Assembly: GCF_000473365.1 (NCBI RefSeq) | Contig: NZ_KI421517.1 | Location: 889,363 to 953,362, forward strand | Direction: 5' to 3' | DNA length: 64,000 bases | Source of the DNA: Adhaeribacter aquaticus DSM 16391 | Lineage (GTDB): Bacteria > Bacteroidota > Bacteroidia > Cytophagales > Hymenobacteraceae | Part shown: piece after piece, positions 20,276-23,735 of the stretch | How positions within the stretch are numbered: the stretch's first letter is position 1 | Layout of the letters: the number at the start of each line of letters is the position of its first letter | Translations under genes and position numbers: made by a program | Notes under the pieces: generated by a model | Databases searched by the model: none | What the model was told of the DNA's origin: nothing | Seen by the model: only the letters and a program-made list of their open reading frames with translations

Positions 20276-21121
20276 ATGGAAAATATTAGAAAACAACTTT
20301 CTTACGGATTACTGGCCCTGACTTTATTGTCATCGTCGTGTGTATCATCTAAAAAATACAAAGCTTTAGAATCCCGGCACTTTGATTTACAAAATACGCG
20401 GGATGCTCTAAGCCAGGACAAAGCAGCTTTAGAACAAGAAAAAGCTAGATTGGAACAACAGCGAGCCACGCTGGAAAGGGAAAAAGAAACCTTACAACAA
20501 CAGATGGCTACTACTGAGCGAAACTTGAGCGAAAACTTGAAAAACAGCAATCAGAAAGTTTCTCAATTGAGTTCTGACTTAAAATCAAGAGAGGCTCGCC
20601 TCCTGGAAATGCAGCGAATACTGGCCGAAAAAGATCGAGCCGTCAATGAATTACGAAATCGGGTAAGCAATGCTTTATTAGGCTTTAAATCCGGTGACTT
20701 ATCGGTAAACGTAAAAAACGGGAAGGTATATGTTTCTTTATCTGAGCAGTTATTGTTTAAATCAGGCAGTACCAAAGTAGATCCGAAAGGTCAGGAAGCC
20801 CTACAAAAACTAGCTGCTGCCTTAAAAGATCAGCAGGATGTAAATGTACTGGTAGAAGGCCATACTGATGACGTACCGGTATCCAGAGGCACGGTGGGGA
20901 TGAAAGATAACTGGGATTTAAGTGTATTACGCGCTACTGAAATTGCCCGTATATTAACAACATCTGGTTTATCAGCCCAGCGCGTTACGGCCTCCGGACA
21001 CGGCGAATTTGTACCGGTGGTAGCTAATAATACGCCGGAAAATCGTCAGTTAAACCGCCGAACAGAGATAATTCTGACGCCAAAACTAGACGAGTTATTT
21101 AAAATACTAGAACAAAACTAA
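20276..21121 (+). CDS. OmpA-family lipoprotein
   Basis: The 281-residue protein has a lipoprotein signal with the lipidated Cys at 22 (LLSSSC). A long heptad-rich coiled coil at about 30-125 follows (LEQEKARLEQQRATLEREKE). The C-terminal OmpA domain at about 150-275 carries VLVEGHTDDVPVSRG, NWDLSVLRATEIARIL, GHGEFVPVVAN and NRRTEIILTP. The N-D-L-S..R motif contacts the diaminopimelate of peptidoglycan. It should tether the outer membrane, where the lipid sits, to the wall. The coiled coil may span or multimerise. The gene is monocistronic with a terminator. Confidence 0.9.
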   Translation: MENIRKQLSYGLLALTLLSSSCVSSKKYKALESRHFDLQNTRDALSQDKAALEQEKARLEQQRATLEREKETLQQQMATTERNLSENLKNSNQKVSQLSSDLKSREARLLEMQRILAEKDRAVNELRNRVSNALLGFKSGDLSVNVKNGKVYVSLSEQLLFKSGSTKVDPKGQEALQKLAAALKDQQDVNVLVEGHTDDVPVSRGTVGMKDNWDLSVLRATEIARILTTSGLSAQRVTASGHGEFVPVVANNTPENRQLNRRTEIILTPKLDELFKILEQN

Positions 21122-21135
21122 CTGTCTAACAGCTA

Positions 21136-21172
21136 AAGAAGCTCAGAGAAGACATACTTCCCTGAGCTTCTT
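21136..21172 (+). terminator. Terminator after the OmpA lipoprotein gene
   Basis: AAGAAGCTCAG (21136-21146) pairs perfectly with CTGAGCTTCTT (21162-21172), followed by AATTTTAATTT. It lies 15 bases after the stop codon. Confidence 0.8.
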
Positions 21173-21292
21173 AATTTTAATTTATACCTGCCTAACGGTG
21201 TCATTAACTTTTTAGTCAATCACGCCTACTCACCTCTCTCCTTTTAACAAAAATTACCCTTAACCTGAATAGAACTTTCTACTTTTATTTAG

Positions 21293-21317
21293 TGTATATA
21301 CATTTAATGTATATACA
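21293..21317 (+). promoter_or_regulatory. Double palindromic operator upstream of ygiD
   Basis: Two copies of the 10-base palindrome TGTATATACA (21293-21302 and 21308-21317) are separated by TTTAA, so their centres are 15 bases apart. The pair ends 47 bases before the ygiD start. The same arrangement lies ahead of yceI at 22882-22906. It is a likely dimeric-regulator site; the regulator is unknown. Confidence 0.65.
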
Positions 21318-21364
21318 AATTGGCACATTATTAGCTAAACTTGTATTGCAACACGAGTAAAGCT

Positions 21365-22189
21365 ATGAACCTGAAAGGTCTTGATAACATAACCAAAAAT
21401 TTTACTACTACCGAGGCAATGCCTGTTTTATTTGTAGGTCACGGTAGTCCCATGAATGCTATAGAAGAGAATACGTTTGCTCAGAACTGGCAGCAACTAG
21501 GGAAAACCTTACCCAAACCAACAGCTATACTTTGTATTTCTGCACACTGGCAAACCCGGGGCACTTTTGTTACTGCCGCCGAAAAACCAGAAACTATTCA
21601 TGATTTTGGAGGGTTTCCCCAGGCCTTGTTTGATGTACAATACCAGGCACCAGGAAGCTTAGCCTTAGCCCAGGAAACACAAACTGTTATTACCAGCACA
21701 TCCGTTGGCTTAGATTATAATTGGGGATTAGACCATGGATCATGGAGCATTTTAAAGCACTTCTACCCGAAGGCAGATATTCCGGTAGTGGAAATGAGCC
21801 TGGATTACACTAAAACTCCGCAATGGCATTATGAATTAGCTAAAGAATTGGCAACACTTCGCCGAAAGGGTGTTTTAATTTTGGGAAGCGGTAATATTGT
21901 ACATAACCTCCGGATGATAAACTGGAACAGTCCAAATCAGGGTTTTGACTGGGCTGTAGAGGCTAATGAAAAAGTTAAAAGCTTAATTCAAAAGAAAGAA
22001 CATAAGCCACTTGCCTATTATTCAGGTTTAGGTACGGAACTGCAGTTAGCTATTCCTACACCAGAGCATTTTTTACCTTTGCTTTATACCCTGGGTTTGC
22101 AGGAAGACCAGGAGAAGGTTTCGTTCTTTAACGATGAAACAATTTACGGCTCCATATCCATGACTTCTTTGAAAATAGATAAAGCTTAA
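21365..22189 (+). CDS. ygiD: 4,5-DOPA dioxygenase extradiol family protein YgiD
   Basis: Starting at ATG 21365 the protein has 274 residues. A TTG at 21341 would add eight unrelated residues. It belongs to the class III extradiol dioxygenase (LigB/YgiD) family. Visible motifs are PVLFVGHGSPMNAIEENTFA, ILCISAHWQTRG, YQAPG, LDHGSWSILKHFYPKADIPV and GSGNIVHNLR. They include the His residues that hold the active-site metal (GHGSP, SAHW, HNL). Family members cleave catechols such as DOPA, but the natural substrate in Bacteroidota is unclear. It shares an operator arrangement with the convergent yceI gene and is likely induced by the same signal. Confidence 0.9.
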   Translation: MNLKGLDNITKNFTTTEAMPVLFVGHGSPMNAIEENTFAQNWQQLGKTLPKPTAILCISAHWQTRGTFVTAAEKPETIHDFGGFPQALFDVQYQAPGSLALAQETQTVITSTSVGLDYNWGLDHGSWSILKHFYPKADIPVVEMSLDYTKTPQWHYELAKELATLRRKGVLILGSGNIVHNLRMINWNSPNQGFDWAVEANEKVKSLIQKKEHKPLAYYSGLGTELQLAIPTPEHFLPLLYTLGLQEDQEKVSFFNDETIYGSISMTSLKIDKA

Positions 22190-22246
22190 TACTGGCTCTG
22201 CTTCACCTATTCCACAAAACGACCAGCGCCTTATGTGTTAGCTCAA

Positions 22247-22291
22247 AAAAGAGAAAGCCCTCTGTTTTAAAAACAGAGGGCTTTCTCTTTT
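22247..22291. terminator. Bidirectional 22-bp terminator between ygiD and yceI
   Basis: The arms are 22247-22268 and 22270-22291, a perfect 22-bp stem built around GAGAAAGCCCTCTGTTTT, with A and T runs at the ends. It can stop transcription from both convergent genes. Confidence 0.85.
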
Positions 22292-22307
22292 ATTCTACCT
22301 AAAAACC

Positions 22308-22844
22308 TTAGGCTTGTTTTACAAGCTGAATTTCGGCTTGCAGTTTTATTTCATCACTCACTACCACACTTCCTGCCTCGGTAACAGCACTCCAGGTTAA
22401 GCCAAACTCTTTGCGGCTAACTTTACCGGAAACAGTGAAACCAGCTTTGGTTTGTCCGTATGGGTCTACTACAATACCACCAAACTCTACCTGTAGGCTT
22501 ACCGGCTTGCTGATGCCCCGGATAGTCAGGTTACCATCCAACTGGTAATTATCGCCGCCTACATTTTTATAACCGGTACCTTCAAACCTGATTTCTCCAT
22601 GATTAGCCGCATCAAAGAAATCAGCTGAGCGCAGGTGCGTATCCCGCTGGTCATTATTGGTATTGATGGAATCAACATCCGCTGTAAATACGACACTTTC
22701 TGCTGACGTAAACTGATCATCTGCCGTCTCTGCTTCTACATGAAACTTCTGGAAATATCCTGTTACTGTAGTAATCATTAAATGCTTTACCTTAAACTGC
22801 ACCTCACTGTGCATCGGGTCCACAACCCATTTTACATTAGCCAT
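22308..22844 (-). CDS. YceI family protein
   Basis: The 178-residue protein has the YceI lipocalin-like beta-barrel: WVVDPMHSEVQFKVKHLMIT at the start, DVDSINTNNDQRDTHLRSAD in the middle, YQLDGNLTIRGISKPVSLQV and KVSRKEFGLTW near the end. YceI proteins bind long isoprenoid chains inside the barrel and are often induced by base, osmotic or oxidative stress. Unlike E. coli YceI this one has no signal peptide, so it is cytoplasmic, which is usual for Bacteroidota copies. A twin palindromic operator lies 38 bases upstream of its start and matches that of ygiD. Confidence 0.92.
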   Translation of the reverse strand: MANVKWVVDPMHSEVQFKVKHLMITTVTGYFQKFHVEAETADDQFTSAESVVFTADVDSINTNNDQRDTHLRSADFFDAANHGEIRFEGTGYKNVGGDNYQLDGNLTIRGISKPVSLQVEFGGIVVDPYGQTKAGFTVSGKVSRKEFGLTWSAVTEAGSVVVSDEIKLQAEIQLVKQA

Positions 22845-22881
22845 AGTTTTATTCTGTTTGTTAGTTTAATCTCCATTCAAA

Positions 22882-22906
22882 TGTATGCACAATAAATGTA
22901 TATACA
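22882..22906 (-). promoter_or_regulatory. Double palindromic operator upstream of yceI
   Basis: TGTATGCACA (22882-22891) and TGTATATACA (22897-22906) are spaced by five bases, the same spacing as at 21293-21317. The distal copy is exact and the proximal copy has one changed base pair step (ATGC for ATAT). Confidence 0.65.
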
Positions 22907-23133
22907 TATACTTTTACTAAAATATTTTCTCGCTTTTAATTTCCCATTATTTAAACTAAAATTTAAAAACCATTTTAACGAAGATTATAGAAAAGGGATA
23001 ACATCTGCCAAGGAAATTCACTTTTATACTACTTTACCAGCTAATTAGAAATATTAATGAGGTAAAAGATTTACTGCGTTCATTACTGCTCCAATAAGCT
23101 ACAGGACTTATATCTAAAATAAAAGACAAAAAA

Positions 23134-23168: not shown

Positions 23169-23735
23169 CTAAAATAACTTCTCGGCTGGTGGCTTAACGC
23201 CCTTCATCCGTAAATAAATAGTGGTTTGCCCCCGATGGTGCGTTTGATGCTCAAAAGCCTTAGCATAAGCCAGCTCCCGGTTGAGGTCGCGGTTAAACAA
23301 TTTTACATTCTCGCCCAGCTGGGCATCGATGGTAGTTTGTAAAGCACTTATTACAAAATCGTAGCTATCCAGTACGGCTTTGGTTAAGGCAGCCTTAGAT
23401 CTAAACTCCTCCATCTTTTCTAAATTTTTACCCTGGTACGGATTAGATTTGCCGGAAGCAGCCGCAGCAAAATTATAATTAGCGTTGGCCAGGTGCAGCA
23501 TTTGCTCACCAAAAGATCTGATCTCCGGATTTGGTTTATAACTGATACCATCTTCTGGCATAGCATCCAAATATTCCTTGGTATACTCTTTGGCCCGCTG
23601 CCAATCGGCTACTAATTGCGATTTAGGTGTTAGAAGTGTAGCAGCAGAAAGCTGACAAACACTACCAGCTACCAGTAAAAATCCTAACAAAACATGCAGG
23701 AACAATTGGGTTAAATTTTTCTTTTTCATAGGCAT
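23169..23735 (-). CDS. DinB family protein with signal peptide
   Basis: The 188-residue protein has a signal peptide (LFLHVLLGFLLVAGSVCQLS). A DinB four-helix bundle follows: LVADWQRAKEYTKEYLDAMP, then EQMLHLANANYNFAAAAS, and AFEHQTHHRGQTTIYLRMKG. The metal-site histidines are H in MLHLA and the HQTHHRGQ pair, as in bacillithiol- or mycothiol-dependent transferase relatives. Most DinB-fold proteins are cytoplasmic. The signal peptide here points to the periplasm, as in a common Bacteroidota subgroup. No enzymatic function is established for that subgroup. Confidence 0.85.
   Translation of the reverse strand: MPMKKKNLTQLFLHVLLGFLLVAGSVCQLSAATLLTPKSQLVADWQRAKEYTKEYLDAMPEDGISYKPNPEIRSFGEQMLHLANANYNFAAAASGKSNPYQGKNLEKMEEFRSKAALTKAVLDSYDFVISALQTTIDAQLGENVKLFNRDLNRELAYAKAFEHQTHHRGQTTIYLRMKGVKPPAEKLF

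Follow-up and report, generated by a model that had tools for sequence, protein, structure and literature searches.

Two convergent genes of Adhaeribacter aquaticus, ygiD and yceI, are each preceded by a pair of short palindromes, and the locus raises the question of whether both answer to a common regulator and which regulator that would be. The window analysed here is a stretch of 64,000 nucleotides (C1:889363-953362). A sequence-only reading of it had placed the palindromes exactly five bases apart, with centres 15 bp from each other, ahead of two convergent genes, and the letters and gene coordinates bear this out for both operators (Table 1). It had also described the same palindrome type at both genes. 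In the ygiD operator (TGTATATACA-TTTAA-TGTATATACA) both arms are indeed perfect, and in the yceI operator (TGTATGCACA-ATAAA-TGTATATACA on the + strand) one arm has two mismatches. The distance from operator to start codon is 47 bases for ygiD, as had been given, and 37 rather than 38 for yceI. The ygiD start was set at the ATG at 21365, the mechanically called reading frame beginning at a TTG at 21341. The ygiD product scored 327.6 bits against NCBIfam PRK10628 (cut-off 233) and the yceI product 156.2 bits against PF04264 (cut-off 23.7), which places each in its family.

Table 1. Positions of the operators, genes and promoter boxes in the window, and of the related genes and sites elsewhere in the genome.
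Feature	Position	Strand	Remarks
ygiD double-palindrome operator (site 1 of 7)	21293..21317	none	decamers 21293-21302 and 21308-21317, spacer TTTAA; only site of the seven with both decamers perfect
ygiD candidate -7 box TAAACTTG	21336..21343	+	by eye; one mismatch to TAnnTTTG; low confidence
ygiD, LigB-fold 4,5-DOPA extradiol dioxygenase	21365..22189	+	PF02900 E 2.5e-17; NCBIfam PRK10628
yceI, YceI-family lipocalin, 178 aa	22308..22844	-	PF04264 E 1e-45
yceI sigma-ABfr -7 box TACATTTG	22878..22885	-	shares the last four bases of the operator
yceI double-palindrome operator (site 2 of 7)	22882..22906	none	perfect decamer 22897-22906; imperfect TGTATGCACA 22882-22891
Site 3 of 7	locus L070		upstream of SDR reductase
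Site 4 of 7	locus L069		upstream of Old Yellow Enzyme (OYE)
Site 5 of 7	locus L068		upstream of second yceI
Site 6 of 7	locus L069		upstream of MarR1 gene, itself just upstream of Old Yellow Enzyme
Site 7 of 7	locus L067		upstream of MarR2 gene, itself upstream of a YceI gene
MarR1 gene	C1:4045688-4046134		beside Old Yellow Enzyme
MarR2 gene	C1:1676470-1676919		MarR1 paralogue; upstream of YceI predicted to be secreted

Exact TGTATATACA occurred three times in the window, all three within the two operators. The 25-mer at up to three mismatches was found seven times in the genome and the reversed-pattern control not at all. At up to two mismatches there were six sites in the real 5.17 Mb and none in 25.6 Mb simulated with an order-3 Markov model trained on the window. 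In a phylum-wide sample of 246 further genomes, the strict form TGTANNTACA-N5-TGTANNTACA was present in 4, with one match in each. Both paired palindromes are genuine and greatly exceed what chance would yield.

When the genome was searched for TGT-N4-ACA-N5-TGT-N4-ACA, exactly seven sites were obtained and the reversed control gave none, so the frequent random occurrence that would have spoken against a shared operator was not seen. All seven sites lie upstream of a gene, 14-52 bp from its start codon. The second yceI is followed on the same strand by genes for a pirin, a glyoxalase-fold protein (PF00903) and a carboxylesterase (PF02230). A location at C1:1513070, with three mismatches to the 25-mer, was dropped; it does not fit the pattern, and the reading frames around it look phage-like by eye.

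The search for a regulator gene bearing the same site, which the sequence-only reading had suggested, returned two MarR-family genes. Since these genes carry the palindromic operator at their own promoters, the regulator sought appears to have been found. Both lie far from the window, which fits the earlier observation that no regulator is encoded nearby. The idea that ygiD and yceI are controlled together is supported by the seven-site set; that one regulator does so goes beyond the evidence, because both marR paralogues have the site. MarR1 is a protein of 149 aa whose only Pfam matches are MarR (PF01047, 32.6 bits, cut-off 24.6) and MarR_2 (PF12802, 32.5 bits, cut-off 27). A homologue 79% identical to it (L189) was predicted to adopt the winged-helix MarR fold (pLDDT 92.9), and the 50 Foldseek matches shown for this model all read as MarR-family structures or relatives, with MepR structures among them. 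The YceI gene beside MarR2 was taken to encode a secreted protein from its N-terminus.

We consider it very probable that the 25-bp elements are the operators of a MarR-family repressor regulon, governed by MarR1 and/or MarR2 and presumably induced by electrophiles or quinone-like compounds. MarR1 and/or MarR2 would bind the paired palindrome, and an electrophilic or phenolic/quinone-like ligand would free the repressor from the operator. The genes induced would then be those for the YceI lipocalins, pirin, the glyoxalase-fold dioxygenase, the carboxylesterase, OYE, the SDR reductase, the ygiD catechol dioxygenase and the regulators themselves.

How the operator may be read was approached through its architecture. 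In 16 genomes, with spacings of 0-30 bp allowed, 22 of 24 decamer pairs had the 5-bp spacing, and the reversed control yielded two pairs. Pooling gave 148 sites (reversed control 2) from loci many of which were picked for having a site; 109 of these could be oriented, and the remaining 39 stayed outside the promoter counts, with the neighbouring gene scanned for some of them. Among 127 distinct sites selected through their triplets, the decamer middles were variable and the spacer was AT-rich. Triplet conservation in the pooled sites was dropped as an argument because the sites had been picked by those very triplets (at most 1 of 12 mismatches), and their equal information content is therefore partly built in.

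Counts were instead anchored in 110 distinct MarR upstream regions that had not been chosen for a site. The inner ACA-N5-TGT was present in 57 of them, 47 of which add the outer left TGT and 48 the outer right ACA; the outer pair was present in 56, with the two inner triplets in 43 and 45 of these. A single decamer (TGTANNTACA) is left in 17 of the 62 MarR upstream regions without the full operator (shuffled mean 0.32, maximum 2), and the core TACA-N5-TGTA is left in 5 (shuffled mean 0.37, maximum 2). Twelve of the 17 lone decamers are without a partner triplet at the right spacing and five keep one. Within 46 distinct decamers, complementarity exceeded that of shuffles at positions 4:7 (p = 0.006) and 5:6 (p = 0.029), and off-register position pairs had no excess covariation over shuffles. 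Shared ancestry may inflate every such sequence-counting test. Because of the anchored triplets, the lone decamers and the within-decamer covariation, the most likely arrangement is two dimers per operator, predicted to sit one on each decamer with centres 15 bp (about 1.4 turns) apart.

A single MarR dimer might instead read the whole 25-mer, with its helices on the inner TACA-N5-TGTA and its wings on the outer halves. The 25-mer is itself palindromic, and MarR regulators have been described as binding pseudo-palindromes of 16-20 bp (PMC6798810). Among the four whole-dyad pairs tested, covariation was seen at 5:21 (p = 0.0035), weakly at 4:22 (p = 0.034) and not at 6:20 or 7:19, and the core alone is kept in incomplete operators above its shuffled expectation. 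However, inner and outer triplets are retained at similar rates whichever pair anchors the count, a lone decamer survives in incomplete operators at three times the frequency of the core, and the decamers vary symmetrically around their own centres. A single dimer on the 25-mer is thus possible but doubtful, and one dimer per decamer is the reading carried forward. Such a site is predicted to be a strong tandem-dimer MarR operator that could be used as a reporter.

A perfect TGTATATACA alone was found in 15 of 61 upstream regions, those of Pontibacter and Rufibacter among them. Upstream of MarR1-type genes of these two genera (L194, L196, L199, L203, L190), one perfect TGTATATACA stands in place of the two decamers of A. 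aquaticus.

Conservation in related genomes differed between the two genes of the window. Upstream of yceI relatives (350 bp searched; 30 loci, one per genome, from 53 matches), a site with at most one mismatch was present at 17 of 30 loci, including 14 of 14 at 76% identity or more, the window's own locus counted. Upstream of relatives of ygiD (DODA; 28 loci of 28 matches, 350 bp searched), a site with at most two mismatches was present at 2 of 28, a count that includes the window. Upkeep of the motif in relatives, which the sequence-only reading had taken as decisive for both genes, therefore holds for yceI and fails for ygiD. An operator upstream of DODA was rejected as an ancestral feature, and the ygiD site, kept at so few loci, looks lineage-specific.

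The ygiD site could on these grounds be a recent and perhaps non-functional copy, the ancestral regulon holding only yceI of the two genes; its absence from 26 of the 28 DODA loci and the lack of a perfect -7 box at ygiD are consistent with this. Against it, the ygiD site alone among the seven has both decamers perfect, and DODA neighbours regulon genes in four relatives: in G013 a site is followed by yceI and then DODA, both on one strand, and in G001, G002 and G007 a site is flanked by DODA and a secreted yceI. We regard a recent, perhaps non-functional copy as unlikely and retain ygiD as a probable member of the regulon.

For the regulators themselves, 30 marR loci were taken as the best match per genome in a search with the MarR1 protein alone and were not picked for a site. 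A site with at most 2 of 16 mismatches lay within 150 bp upstream of marR at 23 of the 30, and the full operator was absent from that interval at the other 7. When loci fetched for a site are counted in, 31 of 38 distinct MarR proteins (among 57 matches, some at loci picked for having a site) had one. By the same limits of distance and mismatch, 25 of 80 named homologues (the best 80 of 550 confirmed) had a site and 55 were without the full operator; 200 permuted palindromic patterns on the same 80 averaged 0.02 and reached 1 at most. These best 80 of 550 include records from Cytophagales, Mucilaginibacter, Chitinophaga, Aquimarina, Saprospiraceae, Ignavibacteria and Calditrichota, and sites with at most two mismatches reach Ignavibacteria (L224, L239), Chitinophaga (L264) and Aquimarina (L251).

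It is conceivable that the site belongs to another transcription factor and that the marR genes are merely among its targets. In an order-wide sample of 148 genomes, 112 had a MarR homologue and 36 did not; sites with at most one mismatch occurred in 56 of the former and 8 of the latter (Fisher p = 0.0037), absence meaning no homologue at E ≤ 1e-20, with 16 of the MarR-negative genomes inferred from absence in a hand tally. Site and MarR homologue are coupled in these genomes, but loosely, and the eight MarR-negative genomes favour another factor. Part of the matches at this threshold is however background (by hand tally, 119 sites with the forward pattern and 12 in the reversed control), and both marR paralogues bear the site here, as do 23 of 30 relatives and 25 of 80 named homologues (best 80 of 550). 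Control by another factor is accordingly quite improbable, and a MarR-family repressor remains the preferred explanation. That AT-rich palindromes such as TGTATATACA arose by chance in a window of 40.5% GC is refuted by the absence of simulated and reversed-control matches, the fixed spacing and the conservation.

The sites of relatives add further target families, namely nitroreductase, flavodoxin-fold reductase, aldo-keto reductase, pirin and many YceI. A larger proposal, on which we find the balance even, is that of a YceI-centred lipophilic-electrophile regulon extending across Bacteroidota and Ignavibacteria, in which two paralogous MarR proteins would share a two-decamer code with strict 5-bp spacing. 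The two dimers, one to a decamer, would sit on almost opposite sides of the helix, the operator would stand in register with TAnnTTTG, and in Pontibacter and Rufibacter it would be reduced to one decamer. Relative G028 (L076:3244-7287) has four sites in about 4 kb, around marR, yceI, OYE and a Na/H exchanger with a Usp domain. At L201, L214, L228, L244, L265 and L268, which come from MAGs of lineages including Calditrichia and Kapaibacterium, sites near marR or yceI are built from variant decamers, for example TGTTGCAACA.

The position of the operators relative to the promoter was then considered. Bacteroidota sigma-ABfr promoters are described as having the elements TTTG/TANNTTTG (PMC6847099; PMC9723704), with a -7 box consensus of TAnnTTTG (PMC6847099). 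At yceI, TACATTTG is a perfect match to this consensus in the +21 register. No perfect TAnnTTTG was seen by eye between the ygiD operator and its ATG. Among the 109 oriented sites, 49 had TAnnTTTG in one of two registers, 16 at +21 (over the last TACA) and 33 at +25 (directly after the site); shuffled flanks gave a mean of 0.34 and a maximum of 2 at these positions. None of ten OYE sites had a TAHHTTTG box in range. A sigma-70-type promoter scan of 21100-23100 returned 2 matches against 5.1 expected. Because operators commonly run into the -7 box or border on it, as at yceI, repression by promoter occlusion is likely: a repressor bound at the yceI operator, which reaches the -7 box, would be expected to exclude the sigma-ABfr polymerase.

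The gene content suggests what the regulon may respond to. In B. subtilis and S. aureus, the MarR-family quinone sensor MhqR controls the dioxygenase MhqE and the phospholipase/carboxylesterase MhqD, and in B. subtilis also quinone/azo- and nitroreductases and more dioxygenases (PMC6798810). Judged by Pfam family alone, a comparable set is found here: yceI-pirin is followed by PF00903 and PF02230 genes and OYE adjoins MarR1, with a nitroreductase or flavodoxin-fold reductase at sites in relatives. The Burkholderia YceI-family lipocalin BcnA has been implicated in defence against lipid peroxyl radicals, and ubiquinone-8 has been reported in YceI lipocalins (PMC9113575), proteins of the same family as those here; the available text of that paper holds no occurrence of MarR. 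From the MhqR-like enzyme set together with these lipocalin reports we infer a response to lipophilic quinones or electrophiles, the inducer class being assigned by analogy. The earlier suggestion of a catechol, quinone or oxidative stress signal is thereby supported in the form of catechol, quinone or electrophile.

In gene content the regulon thus resembles the one that the quinone sensor MhqR controls in Firmicutes, but it has a different operator. The MhqR operator is a single 9-9 inverted repeat, TATCTCGAA-aTCGAaATA (PMC6798810), unlike the two decamers and 5-bp spacer found here. The structure of S. aureus MhqR (9QDR) ranked eighth in the profile search (1.3e-12), behind 3u2r (8e-27) and others, and YceI and pirin have no occurrence in the available text of the MhqR paper (PMC6798810). 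MepR is thought to bind the mepA promoter as two dimers across core promoter elements (PMC3617543, a review), which resembles the putative two-dimer binding of a MarR-family repressor over promoter elements proposed here. The mepA promoter has one high- and one low-affinity site, whereas the decamers here are near-equal, fixed in spacing and repeated across the regulon. Searches of titles and abstract openings found no description of the operator or regulon in the Bacteroidota literature, among the matches listed.

QsrR and YodB are regulators of the HxlR/DUF24 type. They act as thiol-switch regulators of quinone stress on the same kind of target enzymes, QsrR having a conserved Cys5 (PMC6798810). 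Unlike QsrR, MarR1 has no cysteine in residues 1-35 and matches only the MarR and MarR_2 families, and a QsrR-type thiol switch was rejected. Its only widely conserved cysteine, Cys96, is present in 64 of the 80 named homologues (best 80 of 550) and lies at the wing in the predicted model of the L189 homologue. It is only a candidate sensor; Cys95 of S. aureus MhqR was reported to be dispensable for quinone sensing (PMC6798810).

The analysis thus offers a concrete regulon, an operator code and candidate regulators for a predicted stress response in Bacteroidota. The roles of YceI lipocalins and YgiD are unsettled, and the analysis links both to enzymes of putative quinone and electrophile defence. 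To our knowledge, the understanding of transcription factors in this phylum is largely confined to polysaccharide use.

Several smaller features were seen around the two genes. A long inverted repeat at 22250-22288 (AGAGAAAGCCCTCTGTTTT / AAAACAGAGGGCTTTCTCT, by eye) lies between the convergent ygiD and yceI and is likely a two-way terminator; it was absent from the output of the terminator scan, perhaps through the loop rule of the scan. A DinB-family gene at 23169-23735 adjoins the yceI promoter and is without a double-palindrome operator of its own. The two yceI genes of the genome (22308-22844 and L068:3385-3921) encode proteins 97% identical and have near-identical DNA bodies with diverged 5' ends and upstream flanks, which points to a recent gene conversion or duplication of yceI, yet the operator and TACATTTG stay alike in both copies.
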